Positions 4,619-25,252 of a stretch of DNA of 32,704 nucleotides are shown here, piece after piece. The stretch covers positions 1 to 32,704 of the forward strand of contig CAIRXZ010000280.1 in NCBI GenBank assembly GCA_903882645.1, written 5' to 3'. Source of the DNA: an uncultured Acidobacteriia bacterium. GTDB lineage: Bacteria; Acidobacteriota; Terriglobia; Bryobacterales; Bryobacteraceae. The first letter of the stretch is position 1. Every line of letters starts with the position of its first letter. Made by a program: the position numbers and the translations under genes. The notes under the pieces are model-generated. The model worked only from the letters and a program-made list of their open reading frames with translations. It was not told where the DNA came from and did not search any database.

Positions 4619-5104
4619 ATGGAAGTCGAGATGAAAATCCGCGGCCTGATGATGGACCCGGTCACCAACCTGCCCATCGTCATCCTTAAGGATGTCAGCG
4701 GCAATACCGTGCTTCCCATCTGGGTTGGGGTCTGCGAGGCCAATGCCATCGCCCTCGAAATCGAGAAAATCGCCACCCCGCGCCCCATGACCCACGACCT
4801 GATCAAGAGCCTCCTCCTGGGGCTGGACACCGGCCTCCGCAAAGTCGTCGTCAGCGAGCTCAAGGACGACACCTTCTTCGCCGTGCTCTGGCTCGATCGC
4901 GGCGGCGAGCTGATTAGCGTCGATTCCCGCCCCAGCGATGCGCTGGCGCTGGCCCTCCGCCTGGATTGCCCCATCTACGTGGAAGAGACCGTGTTGAAAT
5001 CCTCCAAGCTGGCGGCCACCGTGTCCGACAAGGTCAACAACGAAGACTTGCGCCGCTGGCTCGAGGGCCTCAACGACGAGGACCTCGGCCGGTATAAGAT
5101 GTGA
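4619..5104 (+). CDS. Bifunctional nuclease family (DUF151) protein
   Basis: 161 residues, with a single DUF151/BFN domain covering nearly the whole chain. Recognisable pieces are MKIRGLMMDPVTNLPIVILKD at the start, LPIWVGVCEANAIALEIE (the conserved IGxxEAxAI region), RPMTHDLIKSLL, and ISVDSRPSDALALALR. The family is named after a plant protein with DNase/RNase activity; its structure is a homotrimer, and the bacterial role is not settled. The UVR motif found at the C-terminus of some homologues is absent; instead it ends in an acidic helix (NNEDLRRWLEGLNDEDLG). Start ATG 4619 has an AGGGAGC ribosome-binding site a few bases upstream. In many Acidobacteriota and Actinobacteria this gene sits next to miaB, as here, but no functional link is known to me. 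Confidence 0.9.
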   Translation: MEVEMKIRGLMMDPVTNLPIVILKDVSGNTVLPIWVGVCEANAIALEIEKIATPRPMTHDLIKSLLLGLDTGLRKVVVSELKDDTFFAVLWLDRGGELISVDSRPSDALALALRLDCPIYVEETVLKSSKLAATVSDKVNNEDLRRWLEGLNDEDLGRYKM

Positions 5105-5162
5105 TCCCGCGCCCCCCAACAGCCCCGAGTCGGAGCCGCGGCCGTCAGGGAGCGGTTGCCCG

Positions 5163-6467
5163 ATGACTCATGATGACCTTCCGCCTATGACTGCGCTCTC
5201 CACCCTTTCCGACCTCCGCGCCCGCGGCATGATCGAGCAGCTTGCCGGCGATGAGGCCCTAGAAAACCTGCTCGAGGCCGGCGGCGCCACCATCTATATC
5301 GGCTTCGATCCCACCGCCGACAGTCTGCACGTGGGCCATTTGCTGCCCATCCTCCTGTTGGCGCGCTTGCAGAGGCGCGGCCATACCCCCATCGTGCTGG
5401 TCGGCGGCGCAACCGGAATGATCGGCGATCCCAGCGGCCGCTCCTCCGAGCGGCCGCTGCTCACCACGGAGATGATCGCCGCCAACGTGGACGCCATCCG
5501 CCCCCAACTGAGCAAATTCGTCTCCTTCGAGGGCCGCAACGCCGCCATCGTGGTCGACAACGGCGACTGGACGCGGCCCGTCGGCTACCTTGAGTGGCTC
5601 CGCACCGTCGGCAAACACTTCACCGTCAACTACATGTGCGCTAAAGAGTCCGTGCGGCGGCGCCTGGAAGACCGTGAGCAGGGCATCTCCTACACCGAAT
5701 TCAGCTACATGCTCATCCAGGCCAACGACTTCGTTCACCTGTTCGACCATTACGGCTGCACCGTTCAGGCCGGCGGCAGCGATCAATGGGGGAACATCAC
5801 CGCGGGCATCGACCTCGTTCGCAAGACCAGGGGAGCCGAGGTCTACGGCATGACCTTGCCGCTCCTCAGCACCGCCGCCGGCGAGAAATTCGGAAAATCG
5901 GCCGGCAACGCCATCTGGCTCGACCCCCGGCGTACCACGCCCTATCAGTTCTACCAGTTCTGGATGCAGACCGACGACCGCGACGTCGAGCGCTATCTCA
6001 AGCTGTTCACCTTCGAAAGCCTGCCCTCCATCGCCGAGGTCTGCGCCGCCCACCGCGCCGCTCCCGAGCGCCGCGGCGCCCAAAAGCTCCTGGCCGCGCG
6101 CATGACCGAAGTGGTTCACGGCCAGGATGCCCTCGAGGACGCCCTCCGCGCCACCGAGGCGCTCTTCACCCGAGAGCTTTCCGGCCTCTCCGACGAAGAG
6201 ATCGCGGCAGTGTTCAGCGACGTGCCTTCCCTTACGCTGGAGCGCGCCGCTTTCGCCGCCGGCCTGCGGCTCGCCCACCTCCTCGTGCAGGCTGGCGCTT
6301 GCGTGTCCCGGGGCGAAGCGAACCGCCTGATTCAGGGCGGCGGAGTCTATCTCAACAACCGCCGCATGGATGCCGACCGTACCCTCTCCGAGTCCGATCT
6401 GGCGTCGAATTCGATGCTGCTCCTCCGCACCGGCAAGAAAAGCTACTACCTCGTCCGCTTCGCCTAG
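5163..6467 (+). CDS. tyrS: Tyrosyl-tRNA synthetase
   Basis: A 434-residue class Ic aminoacyl-tRNA synthetase that charges tRNA-Tyr. The Rossmann catalytic domain has the HIGH motif as HVGH (56-59) after IYIGFDPTADSL, the QAGGSDQWGNI tyrosine/ATP-binding loop (202-212), and the KMSKS loop as KFGKS (242-246). This KFGKS form is typical of the standard bacterial TyrS type. The C-terminal S4 RNA-binding domain (about 370-434) shows AGACVSRGEANRLIQGGGVYLNN. Length is normal. The start at 5163 has GGGAG about 10 nt upstream; an in-frame ATG at 5187 (MTALSTL) would also give a full protein. It is the last gene of the miaB-DUF151-tyrS run; the following 287 bp contain only palindromic repeats. Confidence 0.97.
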   Translation: MTHDDLPPMTALSTLSDLRARGMIEQLAGDEALENLLEAGGATIYIGFDPTADSLHVGHLLPILLLARLQRRGHTPIVLVGGATGMIGDPSGRSSERPLLTTEMIAANVDAIRPQLSKFVSFEGRNAAIVVDNGDWTRPVGYLEWLRTVGKHFTVNYMCAKESVRRRLEDREQGISYTEFSYMLIQANDFVHLFDHYGCTVQAGGSDQWGNITAGIDLVRKTRGAEVYGMTLPLLSTAAGEKFGKSAGNAIWLDPRRTTPYQFYQFWMQTDDRDVERYLKLFTFESLPSIAEVCAAHRAAPERRGAQKLLAARMTEVVHGQDALEDALRATEALFTRELSGLSDEEIAAVFSDVPSLTLERAAFAAGLRLAHLLVQAGACVSRGEANRLIQGGGVYLNNRRMDADRTLSESDLASNSMLLLRTGKKSYYLVRFA

Positions 6468-12705: not shown

Positions 12706-12710
12706 GCCGC

Positions 12711-13571
12711 GTGCCAGGACTTCCCGATCTGCGGGCTTTCGGCTTTCTGCTGCGGCGGGCCGTCGCGGCGGCTTTCGACGACGATTGTTTCGGCATCGCC
12801 AAAGGGGCGGCCTATTCGGCGCTGCTCTCCTTTTTTCCGGTCCTGGCGTCCTCCGCCGCCATCCTGGTCCAGACACGCGCGTCGCTGGTCTCCCACGCGT
12901 TGGAGAACTCGCTTTCCCAAATCGTGCCGCCGGGCGCGCAGGACCTGGTGATACAGCAGTTCCGCGTGACGGGTAAACGGCCGGCGGCGCTGCTGGTGGC
13001 GGCCGGCTTGATCTCTCTTTGGGCGGCTTCGGGCGTGATCAAGAGCCTGATCGACGGCTTCCACGCGGCTTACCGCGTGCCGCGGGACCGCGGCGCCTGG
13101 CGGCAGGGCGCGGTCTCGATTGCGCTGGCGCTGCTCTGCGCCGCGCCGTTGCTGGGCGCGTCGGTGCTCATTCTGTTCGGCGGCCAGGTGGAGCGGGCGG
13201 TACTGGGCTGGATGAAAGTGGATCCCCTGTGGAATCCGTTGTCCCCGCTGTGGCAGTGGCTCATGCGCCTGGCCCGCTACCTCGCGGCGCTGGGAGCCAC
13301 GGTGACGGTAGCCTCATGTCTTCTGTACTTCGGGCCGTATCGGCCGTTGCGCTGGCGCGGCGTGTGGCCGGGCGCGCTGCTGGCCACGGCGCTGTGGCTC
13401 CTGGCCACTTCCGGCTTCGGCTGGTATGTCCGCCACGTGGCGCAGTACAACGTGATCTACGGCTCGGTGGGGGCCGGCATCGCTCTGCTGGTGTGGATGT
13501 ACCTGCTGGCCGTCAGCGCGCTGATCGGATGCGAGTTCAACGCGGCGTACGAGCGCGGCTACGCGGCGTAA
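12711..13571 (+). CDS. YihY/UPF0761 (BrkB-like) family inner-membrane protein
   Basis: 286 residues starting at GTG 12711, five bases after the propeller gene stop, with no clear ribosome-binding site. The family opening is visible as DDCFGIAKGAAYSALLSFFPVLASSAAILVQ. It is followed by an amphipathic region and five further hydrophobic segments (for example AALLVAAGLISLWAASGVIKSLIDGF, GAVSIALALLCAAPLLGASVLILFGG, LAALGATVTVASCLLYFGPY). It ends in the family signature NVIYGSVGAGIALLVWMYLLAVSALIGCEFNAAYE. Length is normal. Six transmembrane helices are expected. The early ribonuclease BN label for this family was wrong, and its function is not established. Its neighbours give no further clue beyond a shared plus-strand run. 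Confidence 0.92.
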   Translation: MPGLPDLRAFGFLLRRAVAAAFDDDCFGIAKGAAYSALLSFFPVLASSAAILVQTRASLVSHALENSLSQIVPPGAQDLVIQQFRVTGKRPAALLVAAGLISLWAASGVIKSLIDGFHAAYRVPRDRGAWRQGAVSIALALLCAAPLLGASVLILFGGQVERAVLGWMKVDPLWNPLSPLWQWLMRLARYLAALGATVTVASCLLYFGPYRPLRWRGVWPGALLATALWLLATSGFGWYVRHVAQYNVIYGSVGAGIALLVWMYLLAVSALIGCEFNAAYERGYAA

Positions 13572-13591
13572 CGCGGCCGGCGGGCATCCGC

Positions 13592-13597
13592 TACAAT
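13592..13597 (+). promoter_or_regulatory. TACAAT -10-like box before the alginate-lyase-family gene
   Basis: TACAAT ends 7 nt before GTG 13605 (and 1 nt before TTG 13599). A start site 6-7 nt downstream would fall on the GTG, so the message would be leaderless. This favours GTG 13605 over TTG 13599 as the start. Confidence 0.45.
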
Positions 13598-13604
13598 CTT
13601 GATT

Positions 13605-14810
13605 GTGAGGAGCGCCGCTATCTTCTTCGTGGCTGCCTCCCTTGCGCGGGCCGCGGACGCCCCCGCCACGCTTGTATCGGGCGATGAAGCCGGGCCGATC
13701 CACAGCGCGGTGATCCGCAAGGAGGCGTGGACGCAAGATCCCGTCCGCCGCCTGCGGGCGGAGGCCGAGTTGTATCTGAAGGAAGGTCCGTGGAGCGTCA
13801 CTTCCGACCGTCCGAAAGGGATCGATCTGGACCCTCACGAGTACTACAGCGAGGCGCCGTATTACTGGCCCGATCCCGCGAACCCCGGCGGCCCGCTTCT
13901 TCGCCGAACCGGACAGGTCAATCCCAGCCGCTTCACCGCCAACCGCACGGCGCTCGACGCCGCGTGCGACGCCGTGTTCACGCTCGGAACCGCGGCCTAC
14001 CTGCTGGACGACGCGCGGTACGCGCGGCGCGCCGCGCGAATCGTCCAGGCGTGGTTTATCTCCCCGAGGACGCGCATGGAGCCCAGCATGGAACACGCCG
14101 GGGTCATCCCCGGAACCAAGAGCGGAGAGGTCTCGGGGCTGGGCGGCGGCATTTCCGAAGGCCGGCCCTTGATCCGCGCGATCCAGGGCATGGAGTTCCT
14201 GAGTGAAAGCGGGGAGTGGGATGCAAGAGATGCGGCCGCCGCGCGCAAGTGGTTTGAGGAGTACCTGCGGTGGCTCACGCCGAAAGGGCCGGCGGCCGGG
14301 AGCAGACGGAGACCCGACAATTCCACCTGGAGGGCGGCGCTGACAGCCGCGGCGGCCAGCTTCGCCGAGGACGCCGCCGCCCGGCAGACGGCCTTCGATG
14401 CCTATCGCGCCCGCATCCTCCCGCGCCCGCCGCGCGCGGGCGGACCCACGCCGCCAGTCCAGGAGCCGGCCCTGGCCGCCGGCCTGGAGGCTCGCGCGAC
14501 CCTTTGCCGTATGGCGCAAGTTCACGGCGTGGATCTTTGGAGCCTGCGCACGCGAAGCGGCGTGACGATCGCAACCCCGATCGACAATCTCGAAGCGAGC
14601 CTCGCGGATCCGAAGCAGTGGAGCAAAGAGCAGACCGCCGCCTTTCAGGGCCATGGCGTCTACCTGCTGGCGTTCGCTGGAATGGGGCTGAACAAGCCGG
14701 AGTATGTGGCCCTGTACCGAAAGTGGGAACACCCCGAAAGCTCGTGGCTCGCCTTAGTAGACCTGCTGGTAGGCCGCTGGGAAGCCGCCGGGCACCAGAC
14801 TCGGCATTGA
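13605..14810 (+). CDS. Alginate lyase (PL5-like) family protein, catalytic His apparently lost
   Basis: 401 residues from GTG 13605 (VRSAAIFFVAASLARAADA), a short Sec signal peptide ending in ARA-A. The alginate_lyase domain shows GPWSVTSDRPKGIDLDPHEYYSEAPYYWPDP, typical of exported Acidobacteriota members, then NPSRFTANRTALDAACDAVFTLGTAAYL, AARIVQAWFISPRTRMEPSMEHAGVIPG, and GVDLWSLRTRSGVTIATPIDNL. In characterised PL5 enzymes a NNHxxW motif supplies catalytic Asn and His; the corresponding place here reads PDNSTW, with no His. The protein may therefore be inactive on alginate, bind polysaccharide, or use another mechanism. It would act in the periplasm or outside the cell. It ends just before a cloverleaf-like repeat. 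Confidence 0.85.
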   Translation: MRSAAIFFVAASLARAADAPATLVSGDEAGPIHSAVIRKEAWTQDPVRRLRAEAELYLKEGPWSVTSDRPKGIDLDPHEYYSEAPYYWPDPANPGGPLLRRTGQVNPSRFTANRTALDAACDAVFTLGTAAYLLDDARYARRAARIVQAWFISPRTRMEPSMEHAGVIPGTKSGEVSGLGGGISEGRPLIRAIQGMEFLSESGEWDARDAAAARKWFEEYLRWLTPKGPAAGSRRRPDNSTWRAALTAAAASFAEDAAARQTAFDAYRARILPRPPRAGGPTPPVQEPALAAGLEARATLCRMAQVHGVDLWSLRTRSGVTIATPIDNLEASLADPKQWSKEQTAAFQGHGVYLLAFAGMGLNKPEYVALYRKWEHPESSWLALVDLLVGRWEAAGHQTRH

Positions 14811-15052: not shown

Positions 15053-15377
15053 CGAGCGGCTTGGATGAAAGTCGCAAGCGCGTCTCACGGCCCCAGTCCA
15101 CTTCAAAACGCCGTAACTGCCTTGAATTCAATGTGTCCAATAGACAAGAGATGAATTGCCAATTGAATCGGAACTGCCGTTGCAGGAGACGACGTTCGGG
15201 CCGCCGGCGCCTGTCTGGTCCGCCGCGCCAACGCTTGTGTGCAAGATTCAGCAACCATCCCCCATTCGGAATACAATGGCGGCAAGATGCGGTCTGCCCC
15301 GCAGGTCGCGGACCCGCGCCGTTCTCCACGCGCCGTTCTCCAACTGCGAGCCGGAACTCCGGATGCGTTATGATGGT
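15053..15377 (+). other. Non-coding gap ahead of vapBC with a possible promoter and short ORF
   Basis: No convincing gene was found. A TACAAT box lies at 15272-15277; 9 nt later an ATG (15287) opens a 28-codon frame ending TGA at 15371-15373, just before vapB. This could be a leader peptide or chance. A perfect 14-bp tandem duplication lies at 15315-15342. A second -10-like box, TATGAT, lies at 15369-15374, 9 nt before ATG 15384. Confidence 0.4.
15315..15342. repeat. 14-bp perfect tandem duplication upstream of vapB
   Basis: CGCGCCGTTCTCCA occurs twice with no gap (15315-15328 and 15329-15342), 42 nt before the antitoxin start. Tandem sites ahead of a toxin-antitoxin operon can be repressor sites, but this could also be a slippage product. 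Confidence 0.7.
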
Positions 15378-15391
15378 GACATCATGATGTC
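15378..15391. promoter_or_regulatory. 14-bp palindrome over the vapB start codon, candidate operator
   Basis: GACATCATGATGTC is a perfect palindrome that includes the ATGATG start of vapB and lies 3 nt after a TATGAT -10-like box. VapB antitoxins with ribbon-helix-helix folds normally bind palindromes overlapping their own promoter, alone or with VapC. Position and symmetry fit an autoregulatory operator; binding is inferred. Confidence 0.5.
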
Positions 15392-15647
15392 GCGAGCGCA
15401 GATCGCTTTTGACCCGGAGACTCAGCGCCGGGCGCGCCGGCGCGCCAGCGATATGGGCGTGTCCCTCGCCGAATACGTCCGGCGCCTGGTGGCGCGCGAT
15501 CTCGCCGCCCCGCAACGCGCGGCCAATCCGGCGGCGGTCTTCGACCTGGGCGCTTCCGCCAGCTCGGATATTGCGGCGAACAAGGACGCCATGCTCGCGG
15601 AAGCGTTCACCTCAAACCGGCGCCAGCCGCGCCGGCGCATCGCATGA
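15384..15647 (+). CDS. vapB: Ribbon-helix-helix antitoxin of a VapBC pair
   Basis: 87 residues from ATG 15384 (a second ATG follows at once). The N-terminal part MSRAQIAFDPETQRRARRRASDMGVSLAEYVRRLVARDL is a standard ribbon-helix-helix: a short strand RAQIAF, helix DPETQRRARRRASDMG, turn, and helix SLAEYVRRLVARDL. The C-terminal half (AAVFDLGASASSDIAANKDAMLAEAF...) is the flexible part that would wrap the toxin, ending in a basic tail RRQPRRR. The stop overlaps the toxin start as ATGA, giving translational coupling. A palindrome covers the start codon and could be the operator. It is expected to bind and neutralise the downstream VapC and repress the operon. Confidence 0.85.
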   Translation: MMSRAQIAFDPETQRRARRRASDMGVSLAEYVRRLVARDLAAPQRAANPAAVFDLGASASSDIAANKDAMLAEAFTSNRRQPRRRIA

Positions 15648-16057
15648 GTCTCTTTGTCGATACCTCTGTCTGGTACGCCGCGGCGGACAAGTCGGAAGCC
15701 AGTAACTCGCGCGCGAAGGCGGTTCTCTCGGGGGGCGAGCCGCTGGTCACCACCGATCACATCTTAGTCGAGACATGGACGCTCATACGGTACCGGCTGG
15801 GCCGGCGTGCGGCCGAACGTTTCTGGGAAGCCCTGCGAGCCGGGGCTGCGGAGGTGGAAACCGTCGGGGTCGCGGACCTGGATGCCGCTTGGGAGATCGG
15901 AAAATCCTATCGCGACCAGGAGTTTTCGATCATCGACAGGACCAGCTTTGCTGTAATGCGGCGGCTCGGCATCGAGCGGGCGGCCTCCCTGGATGACGAT
16001 TTCGCGATCTTTCGCTTCGGACCAAATCGCCGCCAGGCTTTCACTGTGGTTCGTTGA
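15644..16057 (+). CDS. vapC: PIN-domain ribonuclease toxin VapC
   Basis: 137 residues. The PIN acidic residues are Asp6 (LFVDTSVWYA), Glu43 (ILVETWTLI), Asp98 (FSIIDRTSFAVMRRLG) and the Asp117-119 cluster (SLDDDFAIF). These form the Mg-dependent active site. The YRDQEFSIIDRTSFAVM segment is typical of VapC toxins that cleave tRNA or rRNA, but the target cannot be read from sequence. Length is normal, and all key residues are present, so it looks intact. It begins inside the stop of vapB. Nine bases after its stop lies the end of an ISAzo13-type element, which appears to have split a possible hairpin just downstream. Confidence 0.92.
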   Translation: MSLFVDTSVWYAAADKSEASNSRAKAVLSGGEPLVTTDHILVETWTLIRYRLGRRAAERFWEALRAGAAEVETVGVADLDAAWEIGKSYRDQEFSIIDRTSFAVMRRLGIERAASLDDDFAIFRFGPNRRQAFTVVR

Positions 16058-16065
16058 AACCCTTA

Positions 16066-17354
16066 GGCGTCGTAAATAAATAAGCTTTACAAGTAGGTTA
16101 GTTGCGGGGAAGGATCGTGTAGTTCCATTCGCCGTGGAATTTGTCGGGCTTCAGATTGACATGAGCGAACTCTTCGTCTGTGATCCTTCGCCCGACGGGG
16201 TACTTGCGGTGATCCAGCCGACAGGTCACTGTCAAGCCCTTGGCCGTCGTCGTTCCGGCGATCAGCCGCACCACCGTCTCATAATCGCGCAGCGGCTCGC
16301 CTCGCCAGTTGGACGAGATGAAAGAGAACAACCGGTGCTCCACCTTGTTCCATTTGCTCGTGCCCGGCGGGAAATGGCAAACCGCCAGCGTCAGCCCCGT
16401 CTGGTCGGCTAGGCCCTGCAACTCCCATTTCCACAGCCGCAGGCGCCAGCCGTTGCTGCCGCCGCCATCGGCGGTGATCAGCAACTGCCGCACGCGCGGA
16501 TACAGGCGGCGGCCCTCGGCGCGCCACCAACCGCGGATCGAAGCCACCGCGAACGCGCCCGTGTCGTGGTCTGTGCCCACGTTGACGAAGCCGGCGTTGC
16601 GCCCCAGGTCGTAGATCCCGTAGGGATACGCGCGGGGCACCTCTGGACCGGGAAAATCATGTCCGTTGACCTTGTCCGCCGTCCCTGTTTGACGCCACTG
16701 ACGGCCCTGGTTCTGGTAGTTGCCGATCAATTCCTTCTTCTTCGTGTCCACGGAAATGACGGGTTCGCCCGCCCGCAAAGCCTGTTTGACAGCGCGGTTG
16801 ATATACCGGAACTGCGCGTCACGATCAGGATGATCGCCCCCTTCTTCGGTCTTGCGGTTGCCCTGCAGGCTGTAGCCATCCTCCCGCAGGAGTTGGGTGA
16901 CCTTGGTGTGGCTGACCGGATGGTGCCGGGCTGTCAGTTCCGCCGCAAGCGTGCGGGCGCTCTTGCAGGTCCAGCGCAGGGGCGACCGCGGGTCGCCACG
17001 CGCCGTCGGCTCGACCATGCCGTCCAACGCGGGCGCCAGGCCGGGATCGTTGGACGTCAACGCGTGTCGTCCGCCGCCCTCGCGACGAACCCGGCCCGGG
17101 GCCAGCGGCGCGGCCTGCAATTCCTCGACGCCCTTGATCAACGTGACGCGCGACAGGCCGCAGGCGCGGCTGACCCGCGAAATGCCGCCATAACCCAGTT
17201 CCACGGCTTGGCTGGCGGCCACCAGGCGGCGGGCATGTTCGTCCAGATGCGGCCACATGCCAGCAAAGTACTGGGCGAGTTGGGCATCGGTGTCCATGCC
17301 CAACGTGATAACACATCAGGGTGGTAGATGTAAATGTTATTTATTTACGGTGCC
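16066..17354 (-). mobile_element. Complete ISAzo13-type insertion sequence
   Basis: About 1.29 kb. The left end reads GGCGTCGTAAATAAATAAG, and the right end, read inward on the other strand, GGCACCGTAAATAAATAAC. These are terminal inverted repeats with 16 of the first 18 bases matching and a further TTTACA in common. The trinucleotide TTA directly flanks both ends (16063-16065 and 17355-17357), fitting a 3-bp target duplication. It carries one transposase gene. With intact ends, target duplication and open reading frame, it looks recently inserted. The AT-rich ends contrast with the GC-rich surroundings. Confidence 0.88.
16098..17297 (-). CDS. ISAzo13 family transposase
   Basis: 399 residues from ATG 17297 (MDTDAQLAQYF); a TTG at 17303 would add two codons. 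The N-terminal third has a helix-turn-helix-like region (ISRVSRACGLSRVTLIKGVEEL). A second DNA-binding segment follows (TCKSARTLAAELTARHHPVSHTKVTQLLREDGYSLQGNRKTEEGGDHPDRDAQF), which is diagnostic of this family. The DDE catalytic residues, numbered from TTG 17303, are Asp186 (VISVDTKKKELIGNY), Asp279 (LLITADGGGSNG) and Glu322 (PGTSKWNKVEHRLFSFIS). The C-terminus contains TTAKGLTVTCRLD and ends WNYTILPRN. Length is normal and there is no frameshift, so it should be active. It lies fully within the inverted repeats of the element. Confidence 0.95.
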   Translation of the reverse strand: MDTDAQLAQYFAGMWPHLDEHARRLVAASQAVELGYGGISRVSRACGLSRVTLIKGVEELQAAPLAPGRVRREGGGRHALTSNDPGLAPALDGMVEPTARGDPRSPLRWTCKSARTLAAELTARHHPVSHTKVTQLLREDGYSLQGNRKTEEGGDHPDRDAQFRYINRAVKQALRAGEPVISVDTKKKELIGNYQNQGRQWRQTGTADKVNGHDFPGPEVPRAYPYGIYDLGRNAGFVNVGTDHDTGAFAVASIRGWWRAEGRRLYPRVRQLLITADGGGSNGWRLRLWKWELQGLADQTGLTLAVCHFPPGTSKWNKVEHRLFSFISSNWRGEPLRDYETVVRLIAGTTTAKGLTVTCRLDHRKYPVGRRITDEEFAHVNLKPDKFHGEWNYTILPRN

Positions 17355-17931: not shown

Positions 17932-19359
17932 TCAGAAACTCAGCAGCACGTGCCAGATGTACAGGTACGCGAGGCCCTCGATGTCGTCCCAGACGCGGCG
18001 CACCAGCGCGGCGTCGCCGCATATGGAAGGCAACTCCAGCGCCTTGCGCTCGAACGGCAAGCATACGCCCGGAGGGATCTTGGCCGCGGCGGCCCACGCC
18101 GGCAGGCCCGGCGCGGCGCGAACCGGCGCGTCCGGATGCCGGGGCGACGGCGCCGAGGGGGAACGGTACGCCCCGTATTCGCGCGCGGCATCGGTCATGG
18201 CCTTGAGGTTCTCGATGGACGCGTCGTTCTGCATGATGGCGCTGGCGTCCATGATGTAACCGCCCTCGGCGCCGATGGTCTCGATGAGCTTGCGGCAGTG
18301 CGCCTTGACCTCTTCGGGTTTCCCGAAAGCCAGCAGGGTGTTCGGAACGCCGCCGCTCAGGCAGAACCGGCCGCCCAGCGCGCGATGGGCCTCGGCGGGG
18401 TCACCGCGGTCGATGTGGTAAATCACGCTTCCCGCCGGAAGCTTCGCGAATTCCGCGAGGTGCGCGTCCCACTTGCCTTCGGCGTACATCAGCACCTGGT
18501 TCCCTTGCGCCCACAGCGCGTCGAAGATCGGCTTGAGGGTCGGCCAATAGATGGTTTCAAAATGGCGCCTCGAAATGAACGGCGTGCAGCCCCGGTGCAT
18601 CCAGATGGGAATTGGAACCAGCTTCAGCGGGTCGGCGCCGGTAAGCGCGAGATAGCCGAGATGAGGCATGAGGGCTTGGCACGCGCGCAGCACCTTATCG
18701 GGAATCTCCATCAGGTCGAAGGCGAGGGCCATATATCCGCGGAGCTTGTCGCCCAGGATGTCGAGGGGCGCTTTCAACATGCCGCAGATGGCCGAAACCG
18801 TGCCGCATTCGGAGCGCATGCGCTCCACCTGGGGGCCGAAGGCGTGGAAGTAATCGAGCATCGCCATCCCGCCCTTCACGAAAGACAGGTTGTTGCGGTA
18901 GGTCACGGGCTGGCTCTTAGCGGTCACCTCGCCGCTGACGCGCGGCAGCCACGTCTCGTAAAGAAAGCGCGTGGGATCTGCGATCAGCTCGTCGTACTCC
19001 TGGCGCTTCATGAAGGCCTGCTCTTCGGCCGGCTCGCGGTACTGAAACGCGACGTCCGGCGCGACGTCGATGCCGGGGACGCCGTAGTAGCGCAACCCGA
19101 TGGCCTGGGTGAGGCCGGTCCACACATAGACCATGTTGGGAACGGCCGCGTCCCAATCGAAATCGCGGCAGCAGCGCAGCACGGCCTCGAACGCGCAGCG
19201 GTAGTCGTGAGTCACTTGCTGGCACGTGAAGCCGGCGTACTTGGCGGTGATCTCGGCCGCGAACGGGCGAATGGGCACGCGTTCCGGCTGCCCGTTGCGC
19301 ATGGCCGTCACGTAGCGATTCAGTCTTTCGCCATAGAGCGCTTCGATATCGGTTCGCAT
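17932..19359 (-). CDS. Uroporphyrinogen-decarboxylase-family methyltransferase
   Basis: 475 residues from ATG 19359 (MRTDIEALYGERLNRYVTAMRNGQPERVPIRPF). The open frame runs further upstream, but that part is repeat DNA. The start is typical of the MtaA/CmuA/MtvB side of the UroD family: RxxxAxxxxxPDRVP. Further blocks are AEITAKYAG and VPIPIWMHRGCTPFISRRHFETIYWPTLK, then VLMYAEGKWDAHLAEFAKLPAG, YHIDRGDPAEA, and FCLSGGVPNTLLAFGKPEEVKAHCRKLI. Possible metal ligands are Glu294, His300 and Cys333, but the His-x-Cys...Cys zinc pattern of MtaA is not obvious. A 75-residue C-terminal extension (after YGAYRSPSAP) is unusual. With the corrinoid protein and RACo upstream, a role in moving a methyl group to or from cobalamin is far likelier than haem synthesis. 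The substrate is unknown. Confidence 0.85.
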   Translation of the reverse strand: MRTDIEALYGERLNRYVTAMRNGQPERVPIRPFAAEITAKYAGFTCQQVTHDYRCAFEAVLRCCRDFDWDAAVPNMVYVWTGLTQAIGLRYYGVPGIDVAPDVAFQYREPAEEQAFMKRQEYDELIADPTRFLYETWLPRVSGEVTAKSQPVTYRNNLSFVKGGMAMLDYFHAFGPQVERMRSECGTVSAICGMLKAPLDILGDKLRGYMALAFDLMEIPDKVLRACQALMPHLGYLALTGADPLKLVPIPIWMHRGCTPFISRRHFETIYWPTLKPIFDALWAQGNQVLMYAEGKWDAHLAEFAKLPAGSVIYHIDRGDPAEAHRALGGRFCLSGGVPNTLLAFGKPEEVKAHCRKLIETIGAEGGYIMDASAIMQNDASIENLKAMTDAAREYGAYRSPSAPSPRHPDAPVRAAPGLPAWAAAAKIPPGVCLPFERKALELPSICGDAALVRRVWDDIEGLAYLYIWHVLLSF

Positions 19360-19363
19360 AAAT

Positions 19364-19375
19364 CTCACTAGTGAG
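19364..19375. promoter_or_regulatory. 12-bp palindrome just upstream of the UroD-family gene
   Basis: CTCACTAGTGAG is perfectly symmetric and ends 5 nt before the ATG at 19359. It could be an operator or a small hairpin affecting ribosome access. No second copy was found in the window. Confidence 0.35.
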
Positions 19376-19404
19376 GTCTTCGACTTCAACAGACCAGACA
19401 GTTC

Positions 19405-19604
19405 ACCGCTGAGGCGCGGAGACGCCGAGAGGAACCAAGGCTGGGACTCTGCGCCCTCGGCTCCCTCCGCGCTCCGTCCCCGTTTCCCGAACAACCCACC
19501 TCGAACACATTCCGTGTCCTTTCTTCCCCGGTTCGCGCGCCGAGCAAGCAGAGGACGCGGAGATGGAATCCCTTTAAGACTCGGCGTCTCTGCGTCTCGG
19601 CGGT
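19405..19604. repeat. Inverted-repeat element between the RACo and UroD-family genes
   Basis: ACCGCTGAGGCGCGGAGACG... at 19405-19430 is nearly complementary (about 23 of 26) to the stretch GACTCGGCGTCTCTGCGTCT... at 19578-19604. A third related piece, AGAGGACGCGGAGATGG, lies at about 19549-19565. These CxGAGGCGCGGAGACGC motifs look like the dispersed repeat I know from many environmental genomes. The whole 268-bp gap 19360-19627 has no convincing gene. Confidence 0.6.
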
Positions 19605-19627
19605 ATATCCAAACGTGTCACCTTTGT

Positions 19628-21136
19628 TCAAATCCCGATCCGATCAGACATTCCGAATGCCAGGCAATTCACAAAGGTTTCCTCGAAGCCGGCCTCCGAT
19701 GCCAGCGCGACGTGCTCGGCCCGGCCGCGGATGCCCGCGATCCATCGCTCGCGCCGGGACGGGGAGAGCAGCGCCATTTTCACGCCGCGGAGCGAAGCGT
19801 TGCCGGCAGGCCTGACAAGCGAGGCCGGCGTTTCCAGCATCCCGATTCGGCGCGCGCTTTCGGCGTTGAGGTAATTCCCGAAAGCGCCCGCCAAGTGCAC
19901 CGCGCCGAGATCGCCGGCCCGTGCGCCCCAGCGCTTCAGGAGTAGGCGCAGGCCGGCGGCGATGGCCCCCTTGGCGAACTGCAGCTCGCGTATGTCGGCC
20001 TGAGTGACGACGACCGGCGGAACAAGGGGAAACTCGCGGGCGCCGTCCGCCAATCGCCCGTTAGGAAGGATCTGCCCCAGATCCAATCCCACCGCCACCG
20101 CGTCCACCAGGCCGCTGCCGCAGATGCCGCGCGGCGCCGATTCACCGATGACGCGGCATTCCAGGCGGCCATCGCGGGCCACGACGTGCGCCACCGCGCC
20201 GGACGCTGCGCGCATGCCCATGCGGATACGTCCGGCTTCAAAAGCGGGTCCCGCGGCGGTAGAGGCGCACAGCAGCCCGCGGCCGTCCCCCACCACAATC
20301 TCGCCGTTGGTCCCCAAATCGATGAGCGCGGACAGCGGGTTGCTTTCACCGATCCCAGTGGCAAGGATGCCGGCCAGAATGTCGCTGCCGACGAAGCCTC
20401 CGAGGCACGGCAAAAAGCGGACTACCGCGCTATCCGGCAGATCCCAGCCAAGCTCCCGCGGCGTGAACCGGCGCTCGCCGCCCGCGGCGGTTTGGAATGG
20501 CGCTTGGGCGAGGGGCGCCACGTCGATCCCGCTGAACATGTGGTGCATCACGGTGTTGCCGGCCAGCATCGCCAGGCGCACCGATTCGCGCCGCGGCATC
20601 GCGCGGATCAGCTCGCCGAGGCCCTCGCGGATCGCCGCGGTGAGCCGCCCGGCGCCGCCGGAAATGGCGTACTGCACGCGGCTCATCACGTCGGCGCCGT
20701 AAGCCGCCTGCGGATTGAGCGCCGTCTTAACGGCCAGGATCGCGCCGGTTTCGAGATCCAGCATTTGCGCGGCCAGCGTGGTCGTGCCGAGGTCGATGGC
20801 GATCCCGCAGCCTTCGGCCGGCTCGAACGCGAATGTGGAATCGTCGCCCAGAACCGGCATCTCCCACTGCGCGACCTCCAGTGTCAGAGCCGATTCCACG
20901 CGGCCGCGGCACGCCAGGCGCCACCCTGACGCAAGCTCCTCGCGAGTGAACGCCTCCTCCATCTCCGGCGTCACCGCGAGCACGCCCTCGATCACGCGGA
21001 CCCGGCAGCCGCGGCACGCACCCGCGCCTCCGCACGGGAACTCCACGCCGTGAGGCGAGAGCGCCGCCTCAAGCGAAGCGCCGCGCTCCACTTCCAGGCT
21101 TGTAGCCAGCGGAACGAGATCGACGCGGTAGCGCAT
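19628..21136 (-). CDS. RACo-type corrinoid activation protein (2Fe-2S ferredoxin plus ASKHA ATPase)
   Basis: 502 residues. Residues 1-85 are a plant-type ferredoxin domain with Cys35-x5-Cys41-xx-Cys44 (CGGAGACRGC) and Cys76 (WRLACRG), the four ligands of a 2Fe-2S cluster. The linker leads to an actin-like ATPase core with CGIAIDLGTTTLAAQMLDLETG (about 110-131) and ALIDLGTNGEIVVG as phosphate loops. The middle and end carry the family blocks AGNTVMHHMFSGIDVAPLAQAPF, GGFVGSDILAG, GICGSGLVDAVA and HLAGAFGNYLN. In acetogens and methylotrophs RACo uses ATP and an electron to reduce inactive Co(II) cobalamin to Co(I). It belongs with the corrinoid protein encoded upstream on the same strand. Length is slightly below the 600-640 residues of classical RACo. 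Confidence 0.93.
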   Translation of the reverse strand: MRYRVDLVPLATSLEVERGASLEAALSPHGVEFPCGGAGACRGCRVRVIEGVLAVTPEMEEAFTREELASGWRLACRGRVESALTLEVAQWEMPVLGDDSTFAFEPAEGCGIAIDLGTTTLAAQMLDLETGAILAVKTALNPQAAYGADVMSRVQYAISGGAGRLTAAIREGLGELIRAMPRRESVRLAMLAGNTVMHHMFSGIDVAPLAQAPFQTAAGGERRFTPRELGWDLPDSAVVRFLPCLGGFVGSDILAGILATGIGESNPLSALIDLGTNGEIVVGDGRGLLCASTAAGPAFEAGRIRMGMRAASGAVAHVVARDGRLECRVIGESAPRGICGSGLVDAVAVGLDLGQILPNGRLADGAREFPLVPPVVVTQADIRELQFAKGAIAAGLRLLLKRWGARAGDLGAVHLAGAFGNYLNAESARRIGMLETPASLVRPAGNASLRGVKMALLSPSRRERWIAGIRGRAEHVALASEAGFEETFVNCLAFGMSDRIGI

Positions 21137-21318
21137 CAGTCACCCGGCGTTGCCGTGGAGCGAGCCTTCGGCTTGCAATGCCGCCATTCCTGGCGGCATC
21201 CTCTCAACCGCGTGCAGATGCCCGCAAGAAAGCGGGCATGGCAGGCTGGAGGCCCACTCCACGGAATGCCGACGAGGGCGTCGGCCGCGGACCAGGGGGT
21301 CCGCCCCACCTGAACTCC
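21137..21318. repeat. Array of hairpins between the DUF1638 and RACo genes
   Basis: No gene. The perfect or near-perfect hairpins are ATGCCGCCA/TGGCGGCAT (21178-21199, loop TTCC), ATGCCCGC/GCGGGCAT (21218-21239), GCCGAC/GTCGGC (21268-21285) and GCGGACC/GGTCCGC (21287-21304, loop AGGG). On the minus strand the last is GTGGGGCGGACC-CCCT-GGTCCGC, a member of the dispersed GTGGGGC family. It may act as an attenuator, mRNA-stability element or mobile repeat. Confidence 0.75.
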
Positions 21319-22065
21319 TCATGGCAGCGGCTCCTTGCCGATGACGGCGCCATCGTAGACGGCCTTCACGCGCCAACCCGGCGGCACAACCAGGAAATCG
21401 TCCTCATCCCAACCGCCCGCCACCAGCCTTTCGAAAAGCCCCAAATCGCCGGCGATGGATTCGAATGTCCATCCGCGATGGGCCGCCTCGGCGCGCGCTT
21501 GTTCCTCGAAGCGTCCGTCCGGCTCGAGGCCGGTGGCGATGTAGGTCAACTGACGGTACTGGCGTTCGTATGCGTGCAACTGCTCGTACAGATAGCGGCC
21601 GTTGTCCTCGCCGTAGCGCCCGATCAACTCGTCGAGCGCGAAGCCGGCGCCGGTTTTGTCGCGAACTACCTGCAGGGTGGGCTGCTCCAGATTTCCGCCG
21701 CGCTCGATCCAGCCGGTCGAACGGAAATACACGCCGGGGTTGCCCTCGAAGTACCGCAGATAGCGTTCGCGGCTGCCCATGAGCAAGGCGATGCAATCGT
21801 GAGCGCGGGGGATCACCAATGGAATCGCGCGGCTCGCGAGGCCTGCGAGGCCGTTGCCGCACAGCGCGTAACCAAAGAGAATCGCCTCGTATTGCGCGGG
21901 ATCCACGGCGTCGGCGATCTCCTGCAGCCGGGCCAGCATGGCGGCGCCGCCCAGATCGTGGAGGCCCTTTGGCAGGAACTCGAGATCCACCTGGTGCGGG
22001 GACCGGGCGGCCGCCGCGCACATCTCGCGGTGCAGGACCTCGCACGCAATCAGTTTCAGCCGCAC
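21319..22065 (-). CDS. DUF1638 domain protein
   Basis: 248 residues from GTG 22065 (VRLKLIACEVLHREMC), which overlaps the end of the methyltransferase gene by 10 nt; the longer open frame runs antiphase over that gene and is not real. Family traits are the opening IACEVLHREM, LGGAAMLARLQEIADAV, ILFGYALCGNGLAGL, IPRAHDCIALLMGSRERYLRYF and TPGVYFRSTGW-like NPGVYFRSTGWIERG. The Cys and His residues in LxACEV, YALCGNG and RAHDCIALL are conserved in my memory of the family and could bind a metal. The C-terminus ends VVPPGWRVKAVYDG. DUF1638 has no established function but often accompanies corrinoid methyltransferase genes, as here. The tight overlap suggests it works in the same pathway. Confidence 0.85.
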   Translation of the reverse strand: MRLKLIACEVLHREMCAAAARSPHQVDLEFLPKGLHDLGGAAMLARLQEIADAVDPAQYEAILFGYALCGNGLAGLASRAIPLVIPRAHDCIALLMGSRERYLRYFEGNPGVYFRSTGWIERGGNLEQPTLQVVRDKTGAGFALDELIGRYGEDNGRYLYEQLHAYERQYRQLTYIATGLEPDGRFEEQARAEAAHRGWTFESIAGDLGLFERLVAGGWDEDDFLVVPPGWRVKAVYDGAVIGKEPLP

Positions 22066-22931
22066 AGGCCCGCCAATGCGCGCGCCGCGGCCCGTATGAA
22101 CTCGGGGCTGGTTCCGCAACAGCCGCCAACGAAAGCCGCGCCCGCCTCGACGAGCGCCGGAACGAAGGACGCGAACCGCTCCGGGCTGGTCCGATACGCC
22201 GGGCGGCCTTCCACCATTTCCGGGAGGCCCGCGTTGGGCTTGATCCACAGCGGGAGCGGCGTTGCCGCGCGTAGCCGCGCGCATACCGGCACGTACTCGG
22301 CAATGCCCACGCCGCAATTGGCTCCCACACAGGCGGCGCCCTCATCGGTCATGCGCCGGGCGGCCTGCTCCGGCGTAACGCCCATCATCGTGCGGTCCTT
22401 GTTCTTGCCGCTCTCGAAAGCGAAGGAGACAAACACGGGCAGGCCGGTTCGGCGCGCGGCGGCAAGCCCGAGCGAGGCCTCGGCAAGGTCGCTCATGGTT
22501 TCGAACAGGAGCGCATCCGCTCCGCCCGCCGCCAGAGCCTCGGCCTGTTCGGCGTAAGCCGCCGAGACTTCCTCCTCGCCGATTTCCCCCAAAACCAGCA
22601 TCTTTCCGGTCGGTCCCATGGATGCGAACACCAGGGCGCGGCCGCGCGCCGCCTCGCGCGCAATGCGCGTTCCCGCCCGGTTGATGGCTTCGAGCTCGCC
22701 GGCCAAGCCGTACTGGCCGAGCGCCACGCGATTGGCGCGAAACGTGTTGGTCAGGATGACGCGGCTGCCGGCTTCCACGTAGGCGCCGGCCACTTGGCCG
22801 ACGCGCTCGGGATGGAGCAGATTCCACTGGTCGGGGCACTCGCCGCCAGAAGGGCCGAGCTGCTGCAATTGAGTGCCCAAGGCCCCATCGGTCAGCACAG
22901 GAGCGGAGGCCATCAGGTCAAGTATGTTCAT
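22056..22931 (-). CDS. Homocysteine S-methyltransferase family protein
   Basis: 291 residues from ATG 22931 (MNILDLMASAPVLTDGALGT); the open frame upstream runs through repeat DNA. It is a TIM-barrel zinc methyltransferase of the MmuM/BHMT/MetH N-terminal type. The zinc ligands are Cys206 (GANCGVG) and Cys271-Cys272 (VGGCCGTSPEFIR). LTDGALGTQLQ and TNTFRANRVALGQYGL are the standard opening blocks. This fold catalyses methyl transfer to homocysteine, or, in MetH, from methyl-cobalamin via a partner. The corrinoid protein encoded just upstream would be that partner. The free-standing arrangement (methyltransferase and B12 protein on separate chains) differs from MetH. It overlaps the DUF1638 gene and follows the corrinoid gene after 67 nt that hold one hairpin. 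Confidence 0.93.
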   Translation of the reverse strand: MNILDLMASAPVLTDGALGTQLQQLGPSGGECPDQWNLLHPERVGQVAGAYVEAGSRVILTNTFRANRVALGQYGLAGELEAINRAGTRIAREAARGRALVFASMGPTGKMLVLGEIGEEEVSAAYAEQAEALAAGGADALLFETMSDLAEASLGLAAARRTGLPVFVSFAFESGKNKDRTMMGVTPEQAARRMTDEGAACVGANCGVGIAEYVPVCARLRAATPLPLWIKPNAGLPEMVEGRPAYRTSPERFASFVPALVEAGAAFVGGCCGTSPEFIRAAARALAGLCG

Positions 22932-22970
22932 GCCACCACCAACTTTAGAGCTGCCGCTGCGAAGAAAGAA

Positions 22971-22990
22971 GGCAGACCAGGAGGTCCGCC
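22971..22990. repeat. GTGGGGC-family hairpin between methyltransferase and corrinoid genes
   Basis: GGCAGACC and GGTCCGCC pair across AGGA with one mismatch. On the minus strand it reads GTGCGGCGGACC-TCCT-GGTCTGCC, matching the consensus seen at 21287 and 23779. Confidence 0.6.
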
Positions 22991-22998
22991 GCACCGAT

Positions 22999-23625
22999 TC
23001 ATTCCGCCACCAGTAGTCGAGCCACGGCCACGGCCGCCGCCGCATTTTCGCCGTAGCCATCGGCGCCGATCTCATCGGCGTAGCGCTGCGTCACCGGCGC
23101 TCCGCCCACCATCACCTTGACCCGCCCGCGCAGGCCCGCCGCGGCGAGGGCTTCGACGGTAGTCTTCATCGCGGGCATGGTCACGGTCAGCAGCGCCGAC
23201 AGGCACACGAGTTGGGCGCTCTCGGCGCTCACCGCGTCCACGAACGCCTGCGGCGCGACGTCAGCCCCCAGATCGGCCACTTCGAAGCCCGCGCCTTCGA
23301 GCATGGCCGCCACGATGTTCTTGCCGATATCGTGGAGGTCGCCCTTCACCGTGCCGATCACCACCCGTCCGGCCGGCTCGGCGCCGCTCGCCGCCAGCAA
23401 AGGCCGGAGCAACGCGAGCGCCGCCTTCATAGCGCGCGCGGCCAACAGAAGTTCGGGCACGAAGTAGTCTTCGCACTCGTAGCGGCGGCCCACCTCATCC
23501 ATGGCGGGGACCATCTGGCTGTGCACCAGCTCGAGCGCCGCCGCGCCGCCGGCGAGCGCCTCGCGGGTGGCTTCGGCCGCCGCGGTCGCCTGGCCGTTTA
23601 GAATCGCATCATAAAGATCGGGCAT
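22999..23625 (-). CDS. Corrinoid (cobalamin-binding) methyltransferase partner protein
   Basis: 208 residues, the usual size of MtbC/MttC/MtaC-type proteins. Residues 1-80 form the helical cap (LYDAILNGQATAAAEATREALAGGAAALELVHSQMVPAMDEVGRRYECEDYFVPELLLAARAMKAAL). Residues 86-208 are the Rossmann B12 domain with the Asp96-x-His98-xx-Gly101 motif (GDLHDIGKN), whose His ligates cobalt from below. CLSALLTVTMPAMKTTVEAL and VMVGGAPVTQRYADEIGADGYGENAAAAV are the remaining signature blocks. It would carry the methyl group between a substrate methyltransferase and an acceptor methyltransferase. It is the first gene of the minus-strand block, preceded by an array of five hairpins and a weak TTCAGG-N17-TATCTT promoter candidate (about 23656-23684). 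A GGAG lies 11-14 nt before the start. Confidence 0.95.
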   Translation of the reverse strand: MPDLYDAILNGQATAAAEATREALAGGAAALELVHSQMVPAMDEVGRRYECEDYFVPELLLAARAMKAALALLRPLLAASGAEPAGRVVIGTVKGDLHDIGKNIVAAMLEGAGFEVADLGADVAPQAFVDAVSAESAQLVCLSALLTVTMPAMKTTVEALAAAGLRGRVKVMVGGAPVTQRYADEIGADGYGENAAAAVAVARLLVAE

Positions 23626-23827: not shown

Positions 23828-25252
23828 ATGAGCGACAACAAGAAGGGCCTATTCGCGCGGGACGACGGCAGGAACCTGATGTTCACGTTCATCCTGGTCA
23901 GTTCGCTGTTTCTCCTGTGGGGAGTGTGCAACGGAATGATCGACGTGATGGACAAGCATTTCCAGGAGGAGCTGAGCCTGAGCAAGGCGCAATCGGCTTG
24001 GGTGCAGTTCGCGCACTACCTCGGCTACTTCCTGATGTCGCTGCCGGCGGGATGGCTGGCGAGCAAGTTCGGATACAAGGCGGGAATCATCGCCGGCCTG
24101 CTGATTGTCGCGGCGGGCGGGTTCTGGTTCATCCCGGCCACCCACATCAATGCGCTGGTGCACGAAGGAGCCGTGTCTCCCACCACCGCGTTTGTCGCCT
24201 TTCTGGCCGGCGTTTGCGTGATCGCCACCGGCCTGACGTTTCTCGAGACCATCGCTAATCCTTATACCACCGTGCTGGGCGACCAGCGCTATGCCGCGAC
24301 GCGCATCAATCTGGCCCAATCCTGCAACGGCGTCGGCTGGATCTGCGGTCCGATCATCGGCGGCCTGTTTTTCTATTCCAAGGACGCCATGGGCCGCAGC
24401 ACCGGCAGCCAGACGCTCTACATTCCTTACGTGACGGTTGCCTTTGTGGTCATCGCGCTGGCGGTCATTTTCTTCTTCGCCAACGTTCCCGATATTAAGA
24501 CCGAGGACGACTATCACCTGGACGACGCCGCTCCCGGCGTCACGCACACCTCAATCTGGGCGCACCCGCATTTTTCCCTCGCCGTCGCGGCCCAGTTCTT
24601 CTACGTCGCCGCCCAGGCCGGAATGTTCAGCTTCTTCATCAACTACATGACTTCCGAGGTCCCCGCCATTCCCGCCTCGTGGAGCGCCGCACTGACCAAG
24701 CTGGCCGGCAACTCCAGTTTCCTGCAGGGCTGGCTGCTAGGCTGGTTCGAAACCCACAGAGCCGGCATCCTCGCCATCAGCAACAAGGGCGCTTCCAACC
24801 TGGCATCCCTGGGCCTGGTGTGCTTCCTGGTGGGGCGCTTCACCGGCGCCGGTCTGCTGAGGCGGTTCACCGCCCACAAGCTTCTGGGTCTCTATGCCCT
24901 GGCCAATGTCCTCCTGACGTTCCTGATCTTCTGCAAGCTGGGCTGGCTCTCCGTGGCCTGCGTTTTCCTGAGCTATTTCTTCATGTCCATCATGTTCCCG
25001 ACCATCTTCGCCCTGGGGATCTTCGGCCTCGGCGCCCGGGCCAAGAAGGCGTCCGCTTTTATCGTCATGGCGATCATGGGCGGCGCCCTGCTGCCCAAGC
25101 TCATGGGCTACGTCGCCGACAAGCTCGATATGTCGCGCGGCTTCATCGTGCCGATGTTCTGCTTCGCGTTCGTAGCGTTCTACGGCTTCAACTGGTCCAG
25201 GTTCAGCCAGGCGGAGTCGCTGACGGGAGTGAGGGGATCGGCCGGTCATTAG
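23828..25252 (+). CDS. FucP-like sugar:proton symporter (MFS)
   Basis: 474 residues with twelve hydrophobic segments. It belongs to the L-fucose/glucose-galactose branch of the major facilitator superfamily. TM1 has LFLLWGVCNGMIDVMDKHF; Asp39 lies where E. coli FucP has the substrate-binding Asp46. TM4 has GLTFLETIANPYTTVLG; Glu140 matches the proton-coupling Glu135 within the family motif ETxANPxxTVLG. RINLAQSCNGVGWICGPIIGG and SIMFPTIFALGIFGLG are further signatures. It lies in the inner membrane and imports a monosaccharide with protons; the sugar is not readable. Large loops around residues 220-240 and 275-300 are longer than in FucP. Neighbouring sugar isomerase and dehydrogenase genes (29672-32336) may act on the same type of sugar. 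Confidence 0.92.
   Translation: MSDNKKGLFARDDGRNLMFTFILVSSLFLLWGVCNGMIDVMDKHFQEELSLSKAQSAWVQFAHYLGYFLMSLPAGWLASKFGYKAGIIAGLLIVAAGGFWFIPATHINALVHEGAVSPTTAFVAFLAGVCVIATGLTFLETIANPYTTVLGDQRYAATRINLAQSCNGVGWICGPIIGGLFFYSKDAMGRSTGSQTLYIPYVTVAFVVIALAVIFFFANVPDIKTEDDYHLDDAAPGVTHTSIWAHPHFSLAVAAQFFYVAAQAGMFSFFINYMTSEVPAIPASWSAALTKLAGNSSFLQGWLLGWFETHRAGILAISNKGASNLASLGLVCFLVGRFTGAGLLRRFTAHKLLGLYALANVLLTFLIFCKLGWLSVACVFLSYFFMSIMFPTIFALGIFGLGARAKKASAFIVMAIMGGALLPKLMGYVADKLDMSRGFIVPMFCFAFVAFYGFNWSRFSQAESLTGVRGSAGH

Follow-up and report, generated by a model that had tools for sequence, protein, structure and literature searches.

A gene block for probable UroD-family corrinoid methyl transfer with a proposed homocysteine-type acceptor enzyme in an acidobacterial genome

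The question raised by this locus is where a corrinoid methyl-transfer system takes its methyl group from and where it delivers it. The DNA analysed here, called the window, comprises bases 1-32704 of contig C280 (32,704 nt, GC 65%) from an uncultured Bryobacteraceae genome of 5.27 Mb with a completeness of 99.3%. The minus strand at 17932-23625 holds five intact genes, encoding a corrinoid protein, a stand-alone homocysteine methyltransferase-type enzyme (HMT), a DUF1638 protein, the corrinoid activase RACo and a large UroD-family methyltransferase (hereafter UroD). A preliminary description had placed these five families on one strand, and the Pfam scan of the window proteins, the open frames and the motifs confirmed this. 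All five proteins scored above the Pfam gathering scores of their families. The GC content at third codon positions of the five open frames was 0.81-0.86. The named genomes with the closest relatives of UroD were Acidobacteria metagenome-assembled genomes (MAGs), chiefly from Bryobacterales and Solibacter.

We see an even chance that the UroD, corrinoid protein and HMT module moves a methyl group from an O-methyl compound to homocysteine to give methionine, with RACo and DUF1638 providing upkeep. The large UroD would move the methyl group, most likely from a methoxy compound, onto the corrinoid protein in its Co(I) state, from which HMT would pass it to homocysteine. RACo would draw on ATP and on its 2Fe-2S cluster to bring cobalt that has been oxidised to Co(II) back to Co(I), and DUF1638 would assist RACo. 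We infer the direction of transfer, the donor, the acceptor, the role of DUF1638 and the loss of a zinc site in UroD. The preliminary description had seen a complete pathway; a UroD/corrinoid/RACo demethylation module, a homocysteine-type acceptor and the lack of a stand-alone pterin methyltransferase were supported, and a complete pathway in conserved order was not.

The DLHDIG motif was read in the corrinoid protein, and its top match in the PDB was 1y80 (E 1.9e-57), a corrinoid protein from Moorella that belongs to the O-demethylase type. Against NCBIfam, it reached 194 bits with pyl_corrinoid and 191 and 175 bits with the MtgC models, all below the cut-offs. The top PDB match of HMT was the homocysteine (Hcy) domain of Thermotoga maritima MetH (E 1.7e-46). 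The zinc cysteine motifs of HMT, NC and GGCCGT, line up with their counterparts in Thermotoga MetH, and the protein passes no NCBIfam cut-off. The 2Fe-2S ferredoxin domain of RACo carries CX5CX2C, and RACo matched 3zyy (E 1e-63).

CdmB (9rui) was the only significant PDB sequence match of UroD (E 2.6e-37; E 1.8e-48 with a 45-row profile). By sequence, CdmB was a closer relative of UroD than MtaA or HemE, and MtaA was not matched; this comparison covered the PDB and left out the MtvB, OdmB and MtoB sequences. The UroD model (pLDDT 89.2) has a UroD fold, and its 26 best Foldseek matches were uroporphyrinogen decarboxylases or MtaA. The window genome encodes four URO-D members, namely one HemE-like protein, two others and the large UroD of the block. 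In a tree that did not include MtvB, OdmB and MtoB, the large UroD, the small UroD of relatives and the other family members were separate, and the long branches make the deep order unsafe.

The small MtaA-like UroDs of relatives share the ligand set H242-x-C244...C322, which was invariant in 16 rows. In a weak alignment (probability 33%), the residues of the large UroD at these positions were Y292-x-E294...A374, and the large UroD appears to be without the His-Cys-Cys zinc site of the thiol type. In 81 rows that span several phyla, Y292, E294, W297, H255, R256, Q288 and D317 do not vary. According to PMC10418091, UroD S-methyltransferases use His-Cys-Cys, and O-methyltransferases swap one or both Cys for carboxylates or non-ligands. 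Since UroD appears to lack His-Cys-Cys and has an invariant Glu (E294), this rule favours an O-methyl donor. CdmB, the nearest solved relative, is placed by PMC13222342 in the neighbourhood of the O-demethylases MtvB, OdmB, VdmB and MtoB. Methylthio compounds, which had been proposed as donors, are less likely than O-methyl compounds by the same rule. The strongly conserved polar residues suggest one common polar substrate, not a haloalkane tunnel.

These residues also bear on halomethane dehalogenation. With no significant PDB sequence match other than CdmB, UroD might be a CdmB-type haloalkane:corrinoid methyltransferase, and chloromethane is mainly natural in origin according to PMC13222342. 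However, that paper describes CdmB as metal-free, with a hydrophobic and poorly conserved tunnel. CdmB has P/V/T/Q at the invariant H255/R256/Q288/E294 of UroD and S/Q/H/T at Y292/E294/W297/D371, and D317 of the invariant set is common to both; the pattern looks like one constant polar substrate. We consider dehalogenation very unlikely. Another possibility is that the transfer runs in reverse, so that HMT would take the methyl group from methionine or a different S-methyl compound, with UroD on the acceptor side. The reactions are reversible in principle, and some UroD members, MtaA among them, act on the acceptor side. But the sequence of UroD is nearest to the donor-side CdmB, not MtaA, and it appears to be without a thiol-type zinc site, which makes the reverse direction highly improbable.

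For the acceptor side, the window genome was searched with PF00809. The only matches were MetH and a protein named as dihydropteroate synthase from a sequence motif. No stand-alone PF00809 pterin methyltransferase was found in this genome; the search did not extend to folate methyltransferases of other families. Likewise, no folate methyltransferase, FTHFS or MTHFR was found among the window proteins scanned, in agreement with the preliminary description; the window extends beyond the block by 9.1 kb on the upstream and 17.9 kb on the downstream side, less than the 20 kb by which type 1 mlp clusters are judged. Because PF00809 is limited to dihydropteroate synthase and MetH, homocysteine, reached via HMT, would be the natural acceptor in the window genome, where no stand-alone PF00809 enzyme serves folate. 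A split methionine synthase fed by methyl-tetrahydrofolate (methyl-H4folate), as in Phaeobacter, would need a pterin subunit encoded elsewhere. The block does have the same four companions as PGA1_c13340, c13350, c13370 and c15200 of PMC5764234. With PF00809 confined to the two proteins named above in a genome that is 99.3% complete, the folate-fed synthase is nearly excluded.

The families of the block were also counted in an order-level sample of 200 genomes, for which the Fisher p values ignore relatedness. The positive genomes were 41 for UroD, 61 for DUF1638, 46 for HMT, 51 for small UroD and 21 for the methanol:corrinoid methyltransferase MtaB. DUF1638 was present in 37 of the 41 genomes with UroD, compared with 24 of the 159 without it, and the four UroD genomes without DUF1638 had a completeness of 84-89%. 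DUF1638 was also present in 45/46 HMT genomes and 49/51 small-UroD genomes, and 55 of the 61 DUF1638 genomes had HMT or small UroD. When the window's own genome and 49 of the 80 that supplied UroD loci were tested, 44 of these 50 had DUF1638. In a phylum sample of 247 genomes, DUF1638 occurred in 17, including all three with a UroD of at least 60% identity (the window's own among them). The co-occurrence of UroD with DUF1638 and of HMT with DUF1638 indicates that the five-gene set is not a chance neighbourhood.

The gene order around DUF1638 was compared in 60 distinct loci (score at least 250 bits), with subsets of 50 or 51 loci for which enough flank was available (2.5 kb for n = 50). The usual order in relatives was corrinoid protein, HMT, DUF1638, small UroD and RACo. 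Twenty of the 60 loci had the corrinoid gene, HMT and RACo within 3.5 kb and all on one strand with DUF1638. Upstream of DUF1638, the corrinoid gene was found in 36/51 and HMT in 30/51; downstream, a small MtaA-like UroD was found in 35/50 and RACo in 36/50. Where the available stretch covers both, the small UroD has DUF1638 on one side and RACo on the other. Of the 50 loci, one had the large UroD no more than 3.5 kb downstream. The small UroD is absent from the window's block and was not found in its genome at E 1e-80; a 112-bp inverted repeat occupies the site where many relatives encode it.

The small UroD raises the possibility of methyl-sulfur or methyl-selenium salvage, in which a thioether or selenoether would be demethylated onto the corrinoid and the methyl group would end on a thiol, as proposed for the type 1 mlp clusters. 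This agrees with the frequency of the small UroD downstream of DUF1638, with its His-Cys-Cys ligands, with the match to MtaA of the one small UroD searched and with HMT as a thiol enzyme. The type 1 clusters (type 1 MGCs) are also without folate methyltransferases according to PMC10418091. The window genome, however, yielded no small UroD at the threshold above, and the UroD that it does have appears to lack the thiol-type site. Salvage is therefore unlikely in the window.

The proposal of O-demethylation to homocysteine has to be weighed against several results that speak against it. The alignment of large and small UroD behind the zinc-site loss is weak, as given above. On the acceptor side, the window genome encodes a complete MetH with the reactivation domain PF02965 and a PF02574-MTHFR fusion. 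The HMT module as the sole methionine synthase was rejected on the ground of this MetH. With MetH and the fusion protein, the module would add a methyl source and fill no gap; no auxotrophy demands the route, and the module may well be dispensable for methionine synthesis. The earlier claim that the methyl group yields methionine instead of feeding H4folate is an inference, and the genome also encodes this complete MetH. Moreover, the absence of a pterin methyltransferase was shown for the window's own genome alone and does not extend to all relatives; 22 of the 41 UroD genomes had at least three PF00809 matches. One match was examined in each of seven of these 22 genomes, and all seven were dihydropteroate-synthase-like by the motif of that enzyme. 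HMT was absent at threshold in 7 of the 37 genomes with UroD and DUF1638, including the same-genus relative; in one of the seven (G411), DUF1638 lies at a contig edge. This suggests that UroD does not need HMT and that small UroD or another acceptor must serve there. Seven phylum genomes with distant UroD relatives (about 30-40% identity) were without DUF1638. Linkage was also sparse. For 38 UroD loci, 5 kb or more of flank was available in both directions; of these, eight had a corrinoid gene within 5 kb, three DUF1638, two RACo and one HMT.

Linkage was judged in 80 UroD loci, many with short flanks, in which partners were called by phmmer above 60 bits. Anywhere in the available stretch, a corrinoid gene was found in 13, RACo in five (one on the opposite strand), DUF1638 in four and HMT in two. 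A five-gene order conserved in relatives, which the preliminary description had proposed as a check, was rejected, because UroD is mostly encoded apart from the module, HMT is optional and a small UroD missing from the window is common in relatives. The large UroD could thus be an independent corrinoid methyltransferase that is merely adjacent, with the other four genes served by another donor. Besides the sparse linkage, 24 of the 61 DUF1638 genomes are without UroD, and an inverted-repeat element lies between UroD and RACo in the window. Unlinked homologues, which the preliminary description had named as refuting its reading, were seen for UroD by position but not by co-occurrence, as UroD keeps company with DUF1638 across genomes (37/41). 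Furthermore, the RACo stop overlaps the UroD start (TGATG) in the same-genus relative, whose loci L010 and L281 lie on one contig, and two Verrucomicrobiota loci (L042 and L051) place UroD within an operon in the order corrinoid gene, UroD, DUF1638 and RACo. We regard an independent UroD as quite unlikely. The same-genus relative has RACo-UroD and corrinoid-DUF1638 pairs on two contigs that both end there, and it was not counted for linkage. No HMT was found in the L042 and L051 stretches, which also counts among the results against transfer to homocysteine.

B12-binding was the commonest family beside UroD (11 of the 114 nearest neighbour genes scanned). GFO/IDH/MocA oxidoreductases made up 7/114; such families are common in these genomes, and no donor was inferred from them. 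A similar 240-aa gene, at 11414-12133 in each case, comes after the corrinoid gene and UroD in L069 (Planctomycetota) and in L075 (unclassified). The L069 protein matches PF02965, the MetH reactivation domain, just over the cut-off, and it is perhaps an alternative to RACo there. In L042, DUF1638 and RACo are separated by a group II intron maturase gene (12528-13883) that runs in the opposite direction. In L086, a formate-tetrahydrofolate ligase gene (11402-12991) is directly downstream of UroD. In L008, from a Solibacter MAG, an MtaB gene (4964-6337, E 4.8e-157) adjoins UroD, with a divergent corrinoid gene. MtaB was present in 8/16 DUF1638 genomes without HMT versus 9/45 with it (p 0.048, relatedness uncorrected), no more than a weak hint. 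MtaB was not found in the window's own genome.

DUF1638 is probably an accessory protein with a role in corrinoid reactivation. An alignment of 77 rows (L120-L164, L249-L288 and the window; some rows are the same genome reached twice) showed C8, H36, C69, H89, D90 and C91 to be invariant, which suggests a metal or cluster site. The PDB sequence search gave no significant match. A model built from five sequences (pLDDT 81.5) had weak matches to common two-lobed alpha/beta folds, the best with Z 7.3 and a root-mean-square deviation of 4.1 over 146 residues, and no conclusion was drawn from it. The UroD operons of L042 and L051 keep DUF1638 beside the corrinoid protein and RACo without HMT. Its role thus seems to follow the corrinoid rather than homocysteine.

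Seen across relatives, the module resembles a hub open to several donor enzymes (the large UroD and perhaps MtaB), with HMT, an MtaA-like small UroD or both as its thiol-side enzyme. A wider proposal can be built on this, and we hold it tentatively, as it seems to us rather more apt to fail than to hold. It says that a modular hub of corrinoid protein, RACo and DUF1638, with HMT and/or MtaA-like UroD, would be widespread in Bryobacterales and would occur with UroD in Verrucomicrobiota. It would O-demethylate one common polar compound and pass the methyl group to homocysteine for folate-free methionine synthesis. DUF1638 would be a new metal-binding protein of corrinoid maintenance, marked by its invariant set of three Cys and two His.

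The features of the block are listed in Table 1. The start of HMT is most likely ATG 22931, as a start at 23075 would read into the corrinoid gene. The start of UroD was revised to ATG 19359, because homologues align from residue 1 and an extension to 19494 enters the inverted-repeat element. The corrinoid gene and HMT are 67 bp apart, HMT and DUF1638 overlap by 10 bp, and gaps of 182 bp and 268 bp follow between DUF1638 and RACo and between RACo and UroD. Tight packing is thus limited to the first three genes, and both later junctions contain repeats. The wide gap between RACo and UroD looks like a later insertion, because the two genes overlap in the same-genus relative. The sequence CGCAGAGACGC was not over-represented across the whole window (observed 20, expected 26.5), so the claim of an element is restricted to the inverted pair at 19405-19604.

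Table 1. Coordinates of the gene block, its repeats and the divergent transporter gene in the window.
Feature	Position	Strand	Size	Basis
Corrinoid protein, methyl carrier, first gene	22999..23625	-	208 aa	Pfam B12-binding_2 cap and B12-binding
HMT, stand-alone PF02574 S-methyl_trans, proposed acceptor-side enzyme	22056..22931	-	291 aa	Pfam 1.7e-67
DUF1638 protein, GTG start 22065	21319..22065	-	248 aa	Pfam 2.7e-31
Inverted repeat with 48-nt arms in the DUF1638-RACo gap	21153..21264		112 bp	Repeat search
RACo-type corrinoid reductive activase	19628..21136	-	502 aa	Pfam Fer2, RACo middle and RACo C-terminal
Element like a miniature inverted-repeat transposable element (MITE), 25-nt inverted arms, between RACo and UroD	19405..19604		200 bp	Repeat search
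Large UroD-family methyltransferase, proposed donor-side methyltransferase (MT1)	17932..19359	-	475 aa	Pfam URO-D
FucP-type sugar transporter of the major facilitator superfamily (MFS), divergent from block	23828..25252	+		NCBIfam fucP 263.9 bits, below 280.4 cut-off

The FucP-type transporter may or may not be related to the block. An alginate-lyase-family gene lies at 13599-14810, and the two genes suggest a polysaccharide-degrading context. Directly downstream of the block, at 16098-17303, there is an ISAzo13-family transposase gene, whose match spans nearly the whole model. At 15156-16057 there is a likely VapBC-type pair, in which a short frame judged by eye to be ribbon-helix-helix-like is followed by a PIN-domain gene.

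The block can be compared with several known systems. The preliminary description had suggested a new route. Among the open-licence matches listed, no paper was found in which a donor enzyme of the UroD family is combined with the acceptor module of DUF1638 and HMT. The grouping of DUF1638, RamA-like activase, corrinoid protein and homocysteine methyltransferase has already been published (PMC5764234, PMC12478193). In Phaeobacter inhibens, genetics showed that this grouping is needed for methionine synthesis, and five methionine genes, including a pterin subunit, had correlated fitness (PMC5764234). The grouping also occurs in Ruegeria pomeroyi (PMC12478193). The split methionine synthase of Phaeobacter and Ruegeria (MtgC-MtgD-MtgE) resembles the window in its corrinoid protein, stand-alone PF02574 enzyme, RamA-like activase and DUF1638, and in homocysteine as the methyl end point, which is proposed for the window. 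It differs in using the pterin (H4folate) subunit MtgD, for which the window genome has no stand-alone PF00809 counterpart. The donor enzyme of Ruegeria is of the MttB type (pfam06253) and acts on glycine betaine, whereas the proposed donor enzyme of the window belongs to the UroD family.

The MesA-D core methionine synthases (PMC7857596) also transfer methyl groups to homocysteine without folate, MesA-C probably from corrinoid proteins. They are a MetE-like group, in contrast to the MetH/PF02574-like HMT of the window. The type 1 mlp clusters of PMC10418091 share UroD members, a corrinoid protein and a Ram/RACE protein with the window; they lack a folate methyltransferase, and none was found among the window proteins scanned. 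However, their MtaA-like Mlps number two or more and nearly always carry the His-Cys-Cys zinc site, and the clusters belong to obligate anaerobes. The window has one UroD that is not MtaA-like, together with HMT and DUF1638, and the relatives with small UroD are closer to these clusters.

The Cdm and Mtv/Odm/Vdm/Mto systems of PMC13222342 share a UroD-family MT1, a corrinoid protein and an activating enzyme with the window, although the active-site residues of CdmB differ from those of the window UroD. In those systems, the methyl group goes to H4folate via a second methyltransferase (MTII), which for CdmA was not shown directly. The partner in the window is a homocysteine-type enzyme, and no stand-alone PF00809 MTII for H4folate was found in its genome (other families were not searched). 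Expression of methyltransferase genes for methanol and methoxy compounds has been reported for peat Acidobacteriota (PMC10805028), with the fate of the methyl group not stated in the passages concerned. DUF1638, a family without known function, gains a sharper context from the UroD operons. Judged from its genes, the window would unite the donor half of the Cdm/Mtv demethylases with the acceptor half of the split methionine synthase. Two half-systems that are known separately would thus be joined in a soil lineage, and together they could lead from a methylated compound to methionine without folate.

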